Positions 51,556 to 59,299 of a stretch of DNA of 64,000 nt are shown one piece after another; the stretch's first letter is position 1; each line of letters starts with the position of its first letter. The notes beneath the pieces are model-generated. The model saw nothing but the letters and a program-made list of their open reading frames with translations. It did not search any database and was not told the origin of the DNA. The DNA comes from Chloropicon primus (Eukaryota > Chlorophyta > Chloropicophyceae > Chloropicales > Chloropicaceae): assembly GCA_023205875.1 (NCBI GenBank), contig CP060769.1, forward strand, positions 1-64,000, given 5' to 3'. A program made the translations under genes and the position numbers.

Positions 51556-51984
51556 CACGTCCACTGCAATGCAATGCCATGCAATACGATGAGGAACAAA
51601 CTTTTTGTCAGAGGTCGACGGCGTCGAGTGAGGGGTCAAACGAAAGAGGAAGAGACGACGGCGGTGATTCCGCCACCCTTCCGTCTCCCTCTCTTCGCCC
51701 TCGACTTACCTTCTCCGCCGTTGCGTTCGTTGGGTTCCCCTCCCCTCGTCGCCAGTCGCCAGTGGATAAGGGCACTGATCCCAAGGGAAGGAAGGACAAA
51801 ACTCTGGGAAACGAAAGTCTGGTGACTTTTGATCGAGGAAAGCGGGACACAAAGGACGGAAAGGAGGCCACGAGAGGAACATGGAACAAAAGTACGTCTC
51901 ACGAGCTTTCGATTGATACCTCGTTTGATACTTTTGACGCCCTGATCGAGGTGAGGGAGAGGGACGAAGGGATCGAGGACGAGG
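51556..51984. other. Divergent intergenic region
   Basis: 5' sides of lumazine synthase (-) and the pectin acetylesterase-like gene (+). I see no repeat or gene that I can support. Confidence 0.4.
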
Positions 51985-53253
51985 ATGTGCGTCGAGGGGA
52001 GGAATGGTGCAGCAAGGGGACGAGGGCGCCTTTTGGCGGTCCATCGGTTGAGGAAAAGGGTGACCTCGACGAGATTGCCAGGGTGTCACCTGCCTCTGAT
52101 AGTGCTGCTGTGTCTGTGCACACTGGGCTCTGGTTTGAGCATAGAGGGGGCTGAGACGAGGGATCCCAAGGCAACGAAACAGGTCCTGGGCGAACAATAC
52201 ATCAACTGCAGATGCTTGGACGGAACACTTGGAGCTTTTTACCCCAACTTGAATCCGGCAGGGAACGACACTTTTGTGATCTACCTGGACGGCGGGGGGG
52301 AGTGCACGGATGAGGCGTCTTGCGCCGGGAGGGCAAAGACGAAGCTCGGGTCCTCGACTTCGATGGACGACGAGGTCTACATGAACTATGGCGTGCTGGA
52401 CACGCGAGCGGAAGCCAACCCAAACTTTGCTGATGCGAACTTTGTTCGAGTCGGGTATTGCTCCGGAGACTTGTTCCTCGGGTCGAGGCAGGATCCAACC
52501 ACGGGTTCGGAGTTGTACTTCCAGGGGAGGTACATCGTTCACGGAGTTTTGGACACTCTGTCCCTCAAGTACGGCCTCCTCGACGCCAAGACGATCGTCT
52601 TCGGCGGCGAGAGCGCGGGCGGCATTGGTTCTCTAGCACTGATGGACGAGATGGCCGAGTCCTTGAGAGTGATGGGAAGCAAGGCAAAGTTCTTGGGGTC
52701 GATCCAAGGGGGTTACTATTTCCTCAACGACGATGTGTACGAGGGATCGAATCCACCGCCTTCGAACTACATCCCTTGGGGCTCCAAGGCCTTCCCTGAC
52801 TACATTGAGTTCTGGGGCGCAGAGGATGCCTTGCCGGCGGCTTGCACCGCCAAGGAGACGGAGGATCCTTGGAAGTGCATATTGGCCGACTACAACTTCC
52901 CTTACCTGTCCACCCCAGTCTTCGTTGCGGAGGCATTTACCGACAAGGTCGTCCTGCCCCTGCACACCGGGATGCCTGGCGTCCCACCGAACCTGACTGT
53001 CGACGAGAAGAAATTCACGTATGGGTGGAGCCTGAAGATGAGCGCGTCCCTGCAGAAGAATGTGATGGATCACCAATCCCCGGGCGGCTTGTTTGCTGCG
53101 GCGTGCTGGACTCACACTTCTTTCGAGGAAGGAAGACTCGTGCAGGGCACGACCCACACGGACGCCCTCGCGAAGTGGGTTCGGGGGGACACCGTGAAGC
53201 TTCTCGACACTTGCGGGACCTTCTTGTGCAACCCAACGTGCCCTCTGTCCTAA
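51985..53253 (+). CDS. Pectin acetylesterase/NOTUM-like carboxylesterase
   Basis: Single exon, 422 residues. A basic N-terminus and one hydrophobic segment (LPLIVLLCLCTLGSGL) form a signal peptide or anchor. The PAE/NOTUM core shows IYLDGGGECTDEASC (oxyanion and disulfide region), RVGYCSGDLFLGSR, and the nucleophile motif FGGESAGGIG; AFTDKVVLPLH and CWTHTSF supply candidate Asp and His. Family members deacetylate plant pectin or, in animals, palmitoleoylated Wnt. An alga without pectin-rich walls may use it on another polysaccharide or lipid. NDT and NLT glycosylation sites and paired Cys are consistent with secretion. Confidence 0.87.
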   Translation: MCVEGRNGAARGRGRLLAVHRLRKRVTSTRLPGCHLPLIVLLCLCTLGSGLSIEGAETRDPKATKQVLGEQYINCRCLDGTLGAFYPNLNPAGNDTFVIYLDGGGECTDEASCAGRAKTKLGSSTSMDDEVYMNYGVLDTRAEANPNFADANFVRVGYCSGDLFLGSRQDPTTGSELYFQGRYIVHGVLDTLSLKYGLLDAKTIVFGGESAGGIGSLALMDEMAESLRVMGSKAKFLGSIQGGYYFLNDDVYEGSNPPPSNYIPWGSKAFPDYIEFWGAEDALPAACTAKETEDPWKCILADYNFPYLSTPVFVAEAFTDKVVLPLHTGMPGVPPNLTVDEKKFTYGWSLKMSASLQKNVMDHQSPGGLFAAACWTHTSFEEGRLVQGTTHTDALAKWVRGDTVKLLDTCGTFLCNPTCPLS

Positions 53254-53326: not shown

Positions 53327-55006
53327 TCACTCCCAGACCTTTTCTGCCTTGTGGACCTGCTCGTGGAAGGAGTCCGCGGCCACGAGGAGCTGCTTGACCT
53401 CTTTCATGGCAATGAGCAACTTTCCGCACAGCACGGGCGAGAGCATGTCGCACATGGACTTGAGACCATTGATGTGAACCTGAGAGGACAGGCTCAGAAA
53501 TCTCGAGACGAGGGTTTCCATCGCCTTCTGGCCGGGCGGGGCTCCTGGAGACTTCAGGTAGCAATGCCGGAAGGCCCCTTGGAACAGGAAAGACGCCACC
53601 TTGGGATCGTGGTGCTTTCTCGTGAGCTCAAAGGGAGCGTCCCACTTGGTCTCAAACTCCTTCACCAGCCCCCCCTCCGCCTGCCTGATCTCCCCAAGAA
53701 CCAGCCCGACCCGAGCCTTGTCGCTGTCAGAGATGCTCTGCGTGGTCTTGTAGAGGTAGTCCACGGCCTGGGACAGGAGGGCGCTGAGGGAAGCCTCGCC
53801 CATGATGTTCAGGCTTCGCTCCGCGTGTCCCAGGTAGCACTGGCAAAGGATGCAGAACATGCACGTGCACCTCACCTGGCAAGGATCCTCCAGGATGCTC
53901 GAGGTCCCCGCGGAGGCCTCCAGGTGCGGCACCAGAGGCAGGTGGGCCAGCATCCTCATCTTGAGATGCAGCTGCTGCTCCTTGATGGACGCCAAGGTTC
54001 TCGAGTGAGACTGGAGAATTGGCCTCAGCATCTCCTCCTTCTGCTCCAAGCTCATCTCATTCGAGTCCACGATGTTGCTCACGGACCTCAGCAGCTCGTC
54101 GCACAGGAGGGTCTCCCTCTGGGCCAGGACGTGCCTGATGTTGACCGTGTCGGGGTGGTGCAGCACCACCTGAGTCCGGATGGACCCCTCGCCCGGGTTT
54201 TGGGTCTTGGCCAAAGCCTTGCTGATGCTCTTCGAGGCGTCGCGAAGCTCCTTGCCGACTTCGCTGCAGATTTGCTGCACGGCCTCCTCCGGGGACTTCT
54301 GGGTTTTGCTCCTGTTCGTGGAGGTGATCCTCCTCAGCTGCATCTGGTGGCTCACGTTGGAGTCCGCGGTCAGGGGCGTGTGGGTGTTCTGATCCGAGCC
54401 CTCGACGACGTGGTGACGCCGAGAGTCGGGAGTGGCGCCCTCCAACTTGCCGACCAAGGCCTTGTCGGCGATGTCCTCCACCCTCCTCGTCAGGGCCCCC
54501 GCGAGGGTCATCACCGCCTTCTCGATGCTCTTGTCCTTTCCCTCGCTCGCGCCCGCGGGGTCCCCCCGGTTGGTCTCGCTCTCGTCCGCGGTGGTGGCCT
54601 CGGCCTCCTCGCCCAGGTTGCTGCTCCCCTGCCTCAAGGTCGTCGTCGCCTCGTCGATCTCCTGCTCGTACTCCTTCATCTGCTCGAAGCTTCTCCTCAG
54701 CTCCTCGTTCTCCAAGTGCAGCCTGCTGTTCTGCTCCTTCACCGAATAGATGCTCTCGTTCAGGCACTTGATCTCGACCCTGAACACCTCCCTCTCGTGC
54801 TCCAGCACGTGCTTCTTCCGCTTCTTCCTCTGGTACTGGAGCCAAGCCCGGCACTGGGCTTGCGTCAGCCCCGTCTCCTGCGCCAGCGCCCTCACCTCCC
54901 CGCTCCCCGGCGCCTGATTCCTCTCGTAGCAAGCCTCCAGCGCCGCCAGCTGCTCGTGCGTGTACTTGGAGCTCCCAACCACCGTGCCGTACGACGTGCC
55001 CTCCAT
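53327..55006 (-). CDS. Divergent homeodomain-coiled-coil protein, paralog A
   Basis: Single exon, 559 residues. The homeodomain occupies about residues 12-66 (YTHEQLAALEACYERNQ; LTQAQCRAWLQYQRKKRKK). Spacing from L16 to W48 fits a typical 60-residue homeodomain, but positions 49-52 are Leu-Gln-Tyr-Gln, so the near-invariant Asn51 is Tyr. A coiled coil follows at once (EHEREVFRVEIKCLNESIYS then ENEELRRSFEQM), HD-Zip-like. After an acidic linker, a C-terminal domain of about 230 residues (CYLGHAERSLNIMGEASLSA; LSPVLCGKLLIAMKEVKQLL) is shared with the gene at 57713-59299. I do not recognise that domain; its ending faintly recalls the DOG1-like part of TGA bZIP factors. Probably a nuclear transcription factor. 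Confidence 0.8.
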   Translation of the reverse strand: MEGTSYGTVVGSSKYTHEQLAALEACYERNQAPGSGEVRALAQETGLTQAQCRAWLQYQRKKRKKHVLEHEREVFRVEIKCLNESIYSVKEQNSRLHLENEELRRSFEQMKEYEQEIDEATTTLRQGSSNLGEEAEATTADESETNRGDPAGASEGKDKSIEKAVMTLAGALTRRVEDIADKALVGKLEGATPDSRRHHVVEGSDQNTHTPLTADSNVSHQMQLRRITSTNRSKTQKSPEEAVQQICSEVGKELRDASKSISKALAKTQNPGEGSIRTQVVLHHPDTVNIRHVLAQRETLLCDELLRSVSNIVDSNEMSLEQKEEMLRPILQSHSRTLASIKEQQLHLKMRMLAHLPLVPHLEASAGTSSILEDPCQVRCTCMFCILCQCYLGHAERSLNIMGEASLSALLSQAVDYLYKTTQSISDSDKARVGLVLGEIRQAEGGLVKEFETKWDAPFELTRKHHDPKVASFLFQGAFRHCYLKSPGAPPGQKAMETLVSRFLSLSSQVHINGLKSMCDMLSPVLCGKLLIAMKEVKQLLVAADSFHEQVHKAEKVWE

Positions 55007-55997
55007 GACGAGCCCTTTGACCGTTACTCACACAAACCGCCACCCAAGCGAGCGAGCAAACAAGGGGTCCAGACCTCCCTCGGAGAGCAAAGGAAGAAGG
55101 GAAAACCGTCTCGCCCAATCGCGACGCCGTCGTCCCGCTCACTCCCTCGGCAACCAATCAATCGCACCGCCGACACATAAGGGGTTGTGTGCGCGAGGTG
55201 CCGAAAAAGAAAACGTTCGGTCGGCCGTTACTTTTTCCCTCCCTCCTGATGAGCCACACCTTCGTTTTCTCCCGCCGAGGGGTCGCTCGAAAGAGGAAGA
55301 CGAGGCGGTTCGCCGTGCTCCCGTCCCCTTCCCTTTCCCTTTCCCGTCCTCGTCGCCAAGCGTCCGTCTACCGCTGTCGCGCCATGTGGTGGCGGGCGCA
55401 GAGCCAACGATACTTTTCATGGCTTTCCTCACGAGGGAAGAATAGCGAGCTCATCCTGCCAATTATATTTGGGAGGAAAAATGGGTAATTCAAACCCCAC
55501 CTGAGGGTAACGGGCCAGGCGCTCCGTAACGCAAAAGATCGAGGGACGATGGACGTCCGCAAGTACTCGAAGCGGCACAAGCCCACCGAGGCGTGGGACA
55601 GAGGGACATGATCACGGGCAACAAAACGAAAAGACAAAAGACAACAAAGAATAACAGTGTTGCATCCCTCATAAATAAATAGCAAGGACCCTTTCATATT
55701 TCGGAGGATGGGGGGGTGGGACCCACCACCTGTTCTCCTTCTTCTTCTTCTCCTTCTGCTTCCATTGTCAGTCGCCCACCACACTCGAAGATCGAAGATC
55801 CACGCTCTCAAGCCAAGTCAGAAGAAGACGGCAGGACCTCGAACTCCCAGCCGTGGAGCTGGTTGTCGTAAAAGCTGCAGGAGGCAACCTCCACCCGATG
55901 ATGGTGGTGATGATGGTGGTGGTGGAAGACAAGTCGCGGGAGGACAAGCAAGCAAGTGAATCCCTCCATCAACAAGTTTATTATGTATGCTCTGCTT
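55007..55997. other. Intergenic region, about 1 kb
   Basis: Between the start of homeodomain paralog A and the 3' end of the SGNH gene, both on -. Contains a pyrimidine tract near 55320-55345 and GGTGAT repeats near 55903-55925. No gene supported. Confidence 0.45.
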
Positions 55998-57084
55998 TCA
56001 CGCGGCGGGATTCCCACTTTTTCTGACGAAAGAAACGTTTTGAAGGATCCTTCCGGGCTCCAGGTGGCCAGCTTCCTCGCCGGGGCTCTCCAGGGAGTCC
56101 ACCTCTCCCTCCAGCTCCCGGCACTTGATCTCGTACGTCTCGAACAGGAGCGTTGCCATGAAGTCCAAGGCCAGGGGACCAGGATGGAACCCATCGGGAG
56201 CGAAGAAGCTCTTCAAGGACGACAGGGAGGACGGCACGGTCCCCATCTCCCTCCTCACGAGGTCGTTGATTCCGGGACCCGTGTAGTCCACGTGGATGAC
56301 CGTTCCTGGCAGCGCGGAGCAAACCTTGGCCATCACCCCGTTGAACGCCTTTGCCTTTGCCCCGGCGAGCCGCTTCAGCAGGGGAGTGAGCGCGACGAAC
56401 ATCGACATGGGAGGCATGCCGAGAAGGATGATGGCAGAGTGTTCCCCCACCTTGGCCCGAATCGCGGAGAGCAAGGACCTGAGCTCCTCCTTGAACACGG
56501 CGTCACTCTGCATCGCCCTGTTCCAACCAGAGAGACAGAGAGAGACAGAGAGAGACGGAGAGAAGAATTAGTTTGTGCGAACGGCGACGCGCCAGACCAC
56601 CGACTTACAACAGATTGTTCACGCCCACGGACAGGACGACGACATCCGGATTGCCCGGGATCCTCTTCACGTGGTTTTTCTCGATCCTGGCAGCTTCATA
56701 ACCGTTCCTCCCTATCACCCGCCACGACACTGGCCGACCACTGTGCTTGGAAAGATGTCTCGCAAAGGTCCCAGCGCACGCCTCCTCGTTCGATGTCAGG
56801 CCGCACCCCGCCGCGACGCTGTCCCCGATGCAGACCATCCTCAGCGCCTTCCCCTTGCTCCCCTCGCTCCCCTTGCTCTCGTCCGCGAGGCCTTTCGTGG
56901 GCCCGGGTGCCTCTGGCAGCCTCGGCGTGAACATGGCGACGTAACCGAGCTCCGAGAGAAAGTACGCACCCGCCAGGCCAAGGGGAACGAGCGTGGAGAC
57001 GCAGGCCGTCACGATCGGACTCAATGTTCCCATCCTCCACCTCGCGCAGGGTCCCTTCCCTCTCCTCCCCTGCCAGAACACCAT
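55998..57084 (-). CDS. SGNH/GDSL hydrolase with N-terminal membrane anchor
   Basis: Exons 57084-56609 and 56517-55998 (phase 2, GTAAGT...GAACAG) give 331 residues from the first ATG. A hydrophobic helix (IVTACVSTLVPLGLAGAYFL) near residue 25-45 is a signal anchor. SGNH blocks: nucleophile in MVCIGDSVAAGCG, block II IGRNGYEA, block III SVGVNNLL (GxND with Asn for Asp) and block V DGFHPG with catalytic Asp and His. Such enzymes are esterases or lipases of unknown substrate. It sits between the two homeodomain paralogs on the same strand. Confidence 0.82.
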
Positions 57085-57712
57085 CGAGACTGAGCACCAC
57101 TCCACAAGCCACCTTGGCTTCCTGCTGGCAAACTCTTGGACGTCAAAACGAGTCAGAAGACGGCATCGGAACCTCGAGCGATGGCCAGGCAGGCCTCTTC
57201 ATCGCACTCGACTCACCTGAAGGGATTCTTGCCCTCCCTTCTTTCCTCGCCGTCCTCTTCCCGGTCGCTTGCGGGCTTGGCCTTGTCCCCTGTGAAAAAG
57301 CAAAAGCAGAAGAGAAAGCGTGTCACGTGACAGAGGGAGAGGCCACACCGTACGCGTGCGCGTGATGCCTGGATTGGTGAGGACTCGCTCCCTTCTGATT
57401 CACCAGAGCAACGATACGATTGCTGCCACTTGACTTAATGCTTGACCTTCTTGGTGTGGGTGGGTTGCAGAGTTTCCATGGGATGAGGGGACGACGAGGG
57501 AGGGCTTGGGGACTGTCGTCGTCGCGTGCGTCTGTACCTTGACTTGTAATGTGTACAACAAACAAACGAGCGAGAGAACGAATGAAGGAGCAGACGGGCA
57601 GAAGCTCTGCTGCCCTTTCCCTGCCGTCGTCGTCGTCGTTCGAATAATGGCGTGATGGGGAAGGACCCCTCTCTTTCAACCGTCGTCCAATAATCCAATA
57701 AAATGGGGGCGT
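57085..57712. other. Intergenic region
   Basis: Upstream of SGNH and downstream of homeodomain paralog B. No repeat or gene stands out. Confidence 0.4.
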
Positions 57713-59299
57713 TCACTTGACGAGGAGCTGGTAGAACCCGTCGCTCGCTCTCAGGATCTGCTTCACCTTGTGCATCGCCAGGAAGATTCTGGCGCACAGC
57801 AACGGGGGAAGCTTCTCGTAGCACTTTGCGATACCCTCCTTGTATACCTTGACCGCCCCCTCCATGGTCTCGATCATCAGGGCGGAGGTGTCCTCGGCGG
57901 ACGTCGCCAGGACGGACTCCACGTGGGACCGGACGCTCGCGTCCCGGTGCCTCTCCACGAAGGCGTAGGGCAGGTGGAACCCGACCTCGAACTTGCAGAC
58001 GAGCTCCGTCTCCTGCTTCTTCAGGTCCTCCCGGAACTTGTGCATCAGCATGATCTGGTCGAAGGGGATGGGCTCCTCCAGGTTGATCAAGTCGTATGCC
58101 TGGACGAAGAGGGCGTAGAGGCTGGCCTCCCCCATCAGGCACAGGCTCCTCTCCGCGTAACCCAGGTAAGACATGTTGAAGATGCACATGACGGACTCCG
58201 AGCGCACGTGCAAGTCGGGCTGGAGGACGGCCGCCGGGTCCCTCTTCCGGGGCAGGAGGGGCAGCTGGCCCGCGAGCTTCTTCCTCGTGCTCAGCTGGGC
58301 GTCCTTGATCGCGAGCTCGGCCTTGACGAACGAGTCCAGGAGCGGGCCCACCTCCTGCTCCTTCTGCTGGGCGGTCTTGCCCTTGTCCCCGACGATGTCG
58401 TCCAGGGACTTCATGAGCACGGTGATGATGTCCATGGGGTTCTCGGACTGGAACATCACGGCCCTCACCTGCTGGGCCTCCTGGCTGTGCAGCACGGCAT
58501 CCTGCACTTGGGTGTTCTTCCCCTCCCCTTGGAGGACTCGGGTGACCACCCGGGAGGCGCGCTTCACGTGGTCCCCCGCGTTGCTCGCGATCTGCCCCGA
58601 GACGTCCACGTTGTTCACGTCCAGCGGCTTGCTCACTGTTGAGGAGGCCCCCGCGGGGGGCCGGAGCAGGGCGGCCTTGATGGCGGCCAGGGGGTCTTGG
58701 GTCTGCTCCGACCCCGGGGACGCGTCGGCGGCCATCGTCCTCGGCCTCTTCGCCGCCGTCCCGAGGGTGGGCTCCTCCTCCTCGGCCGCCCCTTCGCCGT
58801 CGGCGACGTTACAAAAGTCCTCCACGTTCCTCCTCAGGGCCTTGTTCTCCGTGAGCAGCGCCGCGTTCCTCTCCTTGGCCCTCCCCAAGTCCTCCACCAG
58901 CAGCTTGATCTCCTTGTACAGGGATTCGGACTGGTTCTCCAGGACGTTCTTCTTCCTCTTCTTCCGCTGGTACTGGAACCAGGCCTTGCACTGCAGGTGG
59001 GTCAGGCCCGCCCTCGCGGCGATGCTCCTCAGGGACTTGGCCGTGGGGTTCGGGTTCTCCCCGTAGCACTCTTTCAGGATGGCCAGGTGGTGGTCGCTGA
59101 ACTTCTTCGAGGACGTCGACGACGTCGAGGGCAGGGTCCCCATCGACGAGGTCGCCATCGAGGGCAGGGTCCCCATCGACGAGGTCGTCGTCGTCGTCGT
59201 TGTTGTCGTTGTGGTGGTGGTGGTCGGGTCCGCCGCAGCAGCGGCGGCGGCGGAGTCCTCTGACTTTTTGGAAGAAAGCGCCATGGTCGTCGGCACCAT
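57713..59299 (-). CDS. Divergent homeodomain-coiled-coil protein, paralog B
   Basis: Single exon, 528 residues (ATG 59299; a second ATG at 59284). A low-complexity Ala/Thr/Ser leader with a duplicated SSMGTLPS segment precedes the homeodomain at about residues 67-120 (HHLAILKECYGENPNP; LTHLQCKAWFQYQRKKRKK). As in paralog A, positions 50-52 are Gln-Tyr-Gln and Asn51 is absent. A coiled coil follows (LYKEIKLLVEDLGRAKERNA, then ENKALRRNVEDF) and then an NLS-like AAKRPRT. The C-terminal 230-residue domain matches paralog A: YLGYAERSLCLMGEASLYAL and KLPPLLCARIFLAMHKVKQI. The two form a tandem pair split by the SGNH gene. Confidence 0.82.
   Translation of the reverse strand: MVPTTMALSSKKSEDSAAAAAAADPTTTTTTTTTTTTTTSSMGTLPSMATSSMGTLPSTSSTSSKKFSDHHLAILKECYGENPNPTAKSLRSIAARAGLTHLQCKAWFQYQRKKRKKNVLENQSESLYKEIKLLVEDLGRAKERNAALLTENKALRRNVEDFCNVADGEGAAEEEEPTLGTAAKRPRTMAADASPGSEQTQDPLAAIKAALLRPPAGASSTVSKPLDVNNVDVSGQIASNAGDHVKRASRVVTRVLQGEGKNTQVQDAVLHSQEAQQVRAVMFQSENPMDIITVLMKSLDDIVGDKGKTAQQKEQEVGPLLDSFVKAELAIKDAQLSTRKKLAGQLPLLPRKRDPAAVLQPDLHVRSESVMCIFNMSYLGYAERSLCLMGEASLYALFVQAYDLINLEEPIPFDQIMLMHKFREDLKKQETELVCKFEVGFHLPYAFVERHRDASVRSHVESVLATSAEDTSALMIETMEGAVKVYKEGIAKCYEKLPPLLCARIFLAMHKVKQILRASDGFYQLLVK

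Follow-up and report, generated by a model that had tools for sequence, protein, structure and literature searches.

What does a homeodomain protein become when it lacks the usual recognition asparagine and carries, behind a zipper, a large C-terminal domain? Two genes of the chlorophyte Chloropicon primus raise this question; they lie at the start of contig 16 (CP060769.1, positions 1 to 64,000; the window), and the genome searched around it comprises 17.58 Mb in 20 contigs. Gene 1 (53327..55006, reverse strand) is an uninterrupted open reading frame of 559 residues (P0001) with a homeodomain, zipper, linker, and predicted DOG1-like domain. Gene 2 (57713..59299, reverse strand), likewise uninterrupted, encodes 528 residues (P0002) with the same parts behind a low-complexity N-terminus. 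The two are diverged paralogues, 34% identical over the full alignment. A preliminary description, made from the sequence alone, had noted the altered homeodomain, a coiled coil like that of HD-Zip proteins, and a C-terminal domain common to both that it could not name. We consider it likely that the pair are HD-Zip-like transcription factors with altered base recognition, joined to a TGA-type ligand or partner module that works without NPR1. The architecture, homeodomain plus in-register zipper plus DOG1-type domain, is well supported; the DNA target, ligand, and function of the pair we infer.

The homeodomain and its zipper

Both homeodomains, numbered from W48, have the standard 60-residue spacing and match PF00046 above its curated cut-off of 22.9 bits. 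Homeodomain positions (HD) 1–60 correspond to residues 8–67 in gene 1 (54806..54985, reverse strand; 39.4 bits over residues 15–65) and to residues 60–119 in gene 2 (58943..59122, reverse strand; 38.0 bits over residues 66–117). Asn51, which normally contacts adenine, is near-invariant in homeodomains; here both paralogues have Tyr51, encoded by TAC at 54833..54835 and 58970..58972 (both reverse strand), so that the regular spacing and the exchange of Asn51 for Tyr reported in the preliminary description both stand. L16, Y20, W48, and R53 are standard in both homeodomains, K55 and K57 are also kept, and the stretch QYQRKKRKK is identical. The recognition helix with its basic tail is the best-conserved part of the pair: 13 of 17 codons specify the same residue, and nonsynonymous divergence (dN) is 0.14; zipper, linker, and C-terminal domain stand at 0.66, 0.97, and 0.74, respectively. 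Tyr51 therefore sits in the least-changed part of these proteins.

At least 11 places in the genome match PF00046 at E ≤ 1, one of them weakly. Among these matches (L005–L015 and the pair), position 51 is Asn in four, Tyr in two, His in two, and Lys, Ser, and Asp in one each. Among these matches Tyr51 was seen only in the pair, while the loss of Asn51 alone, with only 4/11 keeping it, is less exceptional in this genome than that description implied.

The zipper follows the homeodomain directly and occupies HD61–103 (gene 1, 54677..54805; gene 2, 58814..58942; both reverse strand). Positions 61, 68, 75, 82, 89, and 96 read L,F,L,V,L,L in gene 1 and L,L,L,A,L,L in gene 2, in the register HD61+7n of HD-Zip proteins such as ATHB1; the coiled coil proposed earlier is borne out by this recurrence of L, F, V, or A at every seventh residue from HD61. 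Asn occupies the zipper a-positions 86 and 93 in both paralogues. Neither HALZ (PF02183) nor START is among the Pfam matches of either protein up to E 10, a range in which HMMER filters drop most weak matches.

Two Asn51 homeodomains on contig 3, L006 (C3:1043363-1043518, reverse strand) and L005 (C3:380193-380339, reverse strand), are followed by zippers in partly matching register, each with 4/6 register positions from HD68 on. L006 is the nearest other genome match to both P0001 and P0002. Profile comparison of their single frames found no DOG1-like C-terminal domain in either, and from their sequences they are candidates for the canonical HD-Zip-like proteins of C. primus.

Two further matches, L015 (C2:389327-389485, forward strand) and L012 (C9:621122-621337, forward strand), share His51 (WFDH.RR) and carry some 20 extra residues inserted ahead of helix 3. 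L015 also contains two cyclic-nucleotide-binding stretches (PF00027, E 2.4e-38) and is, on sequence, a possible fusion of a homeodomain with a cyclic nucleotide monophosphate (cNMP) binding part; taken by itself, the homeodomain of L015 scores weakly (20.4 bits against the cut-off of 22.9), and its frame may run through an intron. PF00027 has no match in L012, and our literature search for the homeodomain–cNMP combination seen in L015 returned no match.

The C-terminal domain

The C-terminal regions compared span 283 residues in gene 1 and 264 in gene 2, share 31% identity, and fit a known fold over 195–204 residues, in keeping with the shared domain of about 230 residues first described. In gene 1 the domain, delimited by hhalign, the predicted model, and a fold search, covers residues 284–550 (53357..54157, reverse strand); in gene 2 the region covers residues 265–528 (57716..58507, reverse strand), with a predicted-fold match at about 275–525. 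The domain can now be given a probable name. In the fold comparison with DOG1/TGA that the preliminary description had proposed, both predicted models single out this family by a wide margin, and the fold they predict is that of the part of TGA3 and TGA7 which interacts with NPR1; an unknown fold was rejected on the same comparison. Relative to TGA, the models contain an extra loop and helix ahead of the AER motif. Against a viral fold library, no probability exceeded 0.41 among the best 50 of 357 rows.

Profile comparison leads to the same family. DOG1 was suggested by the preliminary description and by two motifs seen by eye (AER... and L.P...AR..LA), and the DOG1 profile was built from TGA3 and TGA7 rows taken from the PDB and TGA2 and DOG1 rows entered by hand. 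Aligned to it with hhalign, the paired profile of P0001 and P0002 scored 37.2 (probability 59.6, E 8.9e-5 for this one comparison, 147 columns). None of 600 scrambles scored as high: the best of 200 column shuffles reached 21.4, the best of 200 shuffles of 14-column blocks 34.0 (the second 33.9), and the best of 200 shuffles of 28-column blocks 26.8. Reversed profiles scored 12.1 and 11.2, and a profile of the N-terminal halves of P0001 and P0002 scored 15.8. The end register obtained from the sequence profile is that of the structure comparison. Profile–profile comparison thus supports homology with the DOG1/TGA domain. A C-terminal profile had no match among PDB sequences up to E 10, which leaves fold and profile–profile comparison as the evidence for the link; the PDB sequence matches of the pair stem from the homeodomain.

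The TGA3 counterpart takes part in dimerisation, holds a palmitic acid within it, and touches NPR1 through eight residues (PMC9360754): Glu263, Pro264, Thr266, Asp267, Thr351, Thr352, Arg353, and Arg357. The corresponding positions are Q,S,S,D,S,P,V,K in gene 1 (1/8 kept) and E,P,P,F,P,P,L,R in gene 2 (3/8 kept). Since so few are retained, the module probably serves partners other than NPR1. The heme ligands of DOG1, given as His245 and His249 (PMC5989226), would correspond to Lys and Val/Arg in the pair when read by eye, ungapped, against a DOG1 sequence entered by hand.

For NPR1 itself, the genome yielded only a 17.8-bit match to NPR1_like_C, below the cut-off of 25. Matches to bZIP_1 at E ≤ 0.1 occur at 21 places, of which the first 8 were tested for a DOG1-like tail; these 8 and 9 other homeodomain frames, all single frames bounded by their loci and some of them incomplete, gave no score above 20.3 against the DOG1 profile. 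No bZIP domain is listed among the Pfam matches of P0001 or P0002, and membership in the TGA factors was rejected for this reason. A survey reports that TGA factors are absent from chlorophytes, represented there by Ostreococcus lucimarinus and Chlamydomonas reinhardtii, and present in charophytes (PMC6508501). On the predicted models, a DOG1-type domain would occur in a lineage from which TGA factors are reported to be missing.

Proposed mechanism and alternatives

HD-Zip proteins bind an AAT.ATT core. In the mechanism we favour, the zipper would dimerise the proteins as homo- or heterodimers, setting two recognition helices on a pseudo-palindromic site; since both paralogues have Asn at common a-positions, P0001 and P0002 could pair with each other. 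Tyr51 is unable to make the Asn–adenine contact, so the base preference should differ from the HD-Zip core. The basic QYQRKKRKK helix may aid affinity through backbone contacts and may double as a nuclear signal. By analogy with TGA factors, the DOG1-type domain could form a second dimer interface and, by a pocket or surface, bind a ligand or partner that regulates the proteins.

Several observations weigh against this reading, most of them at the C-terminal domain. PF14144 (DOG1), which spans only 77 positions, matches neither protein up to E 10 and nothing in the whole genome, although such a profile, blind to the pair, might equally overlook other divergent DOG1 domains. P0001 and P0002 alone score 21.8 and 19.2 against the DOG1 profile, close to the controls, and the paired profile scores 22.4 against the PDB-derived TGA rows alone, so the strong hhalign score requires both the paired profile and the two hand-entered rows; DOG1 was moreover picked for comparison after a look by eye. 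Both models were built from one shared two-sequence alignment, and their confidence is modest, with a predicted local distance difference test score (pLDDT) below 50 over the AER motif, and too low to place the side chains of a fatty-acid pocket. Foldseek E-values are 0.008–0.12, some TGA chains reach a template modelling (TM) score of only 0.44–0.49 by target length, and in the search with model 2 the sixth rank, ahead of the last TGA chain, went to a pore-toxin chain that is not related (probability 0.47). Helical bundles can also yield high Z-scores in fold comparison. Several of these points, and the two 14-column block shuffles of 200 that came near the observed score, would suit an unrelated helical bundle that resembles TGA by chance. 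We think this unlikely: both models choose the same family, profile and structure agree on the end register, and TGA factors likewise have the domain on the C-terminal side of a DNA-binding domain with a zipper. Outside the recognition helix, finally, dN is not below the synonymous divergence (dS), which is 0.51 in the zipper, 0.66 in the linker, and 0.71 in the C-terminal domain; purifying selection is therefore not demonstrated in those parts, and dS is itself unreliable because of strong bias in G+C at third codon positions (GC3).

The same divergence, together with the low identity of the paralogues (31–34%), is what decaying duplicates might show. Pseudogene status is nevertheless very improbable, and we rejected it: both frames are open over more than 500 codons, GC3 is 0.89 in gene 1 and 0.94 in gene 2, and the recognition helix is conserved. 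That conservation also bears on the strongest competitor, in which specific DNA binding would be lost with Tyr51 and the pair would serve as zipper partners by which canonical HD-Zip-like paralogues, among them the Asn51 protein of contig 3, are titrated or tethered. Both paralogues lack Asn51, and L006, their nearest other genome match, combines Asn51 with a similar zipper register, which keeps this explanation a serious one; we nevertheless doubt it, as one would expect a helix that does not bind to have drifted, whereas here it is the most conserved segment and W48, R53, K55, and K57 are retained. The pair might also be ordinary HD-Zip members with a lineage-specific tail, given their zipper register and position and the HD-Zips reported from green algae (PMC6320839). 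Tyr51 lies outside the norm for such proteins, neither HALZ nor START is among their Pfam matches, and the predicted fold of the tail can be recognised as one whose regulatory role is known, which makes this slightly less probable even than a chance helical bundle. We therefore retain the HD-Zip-like factor with altered base recognition and a TGA-type module.

A wider history is conceivable, and we offer it tentatively, at somewhat less than even chances. The DOG1/TGA domain may be older than TGA factors and NPR1, an exchangeable module on zipped DNA-binding domains that chlorophytes would have kept on a homeodomain–zipper whose recognition helix took on a new specificity with Tyr51, as a class of lipid- or partner-regulated transcription factors, and streptophytes on bZIPs, later coupled to NPR1 and immunity.

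Genomic setting and comparison with known systems

The two genes lie about 53–59 kb from the contig end and are not adjacent, being separated by a same-strand gene with a GDSL-hydrolase match (55998-57198, reverse strand; PF13472, 37.7 bits) and an apparent intron; its first piece matches the family and its second piece has no family match. A pectinacetylesterase gene (51955-53253, forward strand; PF03283, 179 bits) adjoins gene 1. Two scans of viral contigs, one with the whole pair and one with the C-terminal domain, found no relative. GC in the window is 0.54–0.62; the published C. primus genome is described as 17.40 Mb on 20 chromosomes with 57.5% GC and a telomere unit of CCTAAAAA (PMC6731263). 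Positions 1-530 of the window form a telomere-like array with the unit CCTAAAA.

All parts of these proteins are known, and it is the combination of homeodomain–zipper and DOG1-type domain that is new, in that we did not meet it in the literature searched: no homeodomain–DOG1 protein is among the matches listed, as judged from titles and abstract openings with subscription papers excluded. The suggestion of an undescribed algal family holds to the extent that no description was found, and is limited by there being only two paralogues, from one genome. TGA factors hold a central place in salicylic-acid immunity, as DOG1 does in seed dormancy. The pair lets one ask what the DOG1/TGA domain did before NPR1 and seeds, and whether dimerisation, binding of a fatty acid or other ligand, or partner binding is the ancestral activity; C. 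primus, in which TGA and NPR1 were not detected, is a direct system for this. With a naturally occurring Tyr51 retained despite their divergence, the two paralogues also offer a test of how a homeodomain reads DNA without the near-invariant Asn.

Among known systems, the non-Asn51 homeodomains L007 (Lys51) and L010 (Ser51) of the same genome, which by eye we take to be DDT- and PHD-type plant homeodomains, have other domains and no zipper plus DOG1 arrangement. HD-Zip factors share the zipper start at HD61 and heptads at 61/68/75/82/89/96, and differ from the pair in position 51, in HALZ/START, and in the DOG1-type tail. DOG1 and the DOG1-like proteins of seed plants have the DOG1-type domain in common with the pair, and the hand-entered DOG1 sequence shares an LSPV motif with gene 1; DOG1, unlike the pair, has no DNA-binding domain, and its heme-ligand histidines are not seen in the pair on the ungapped reading. 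TGA factors work with NPR1, for which C. primus has no above-threshold genome match, and TGA3 differs in the loop and helix before AER and in the NPR1 contacts. TGA factors (TGA3, 7TAC/7TAD/7TAE; TGA7, 8GYZ) nevertheless share with the pair the predicted C-terminal fold, the register of the conserved motifs, and the order of parts, a zipped DNA-binding domain followed by linker and DOG1-type domain, with a homeodomain–zipper in the pair where TGA factors have a bZIP.
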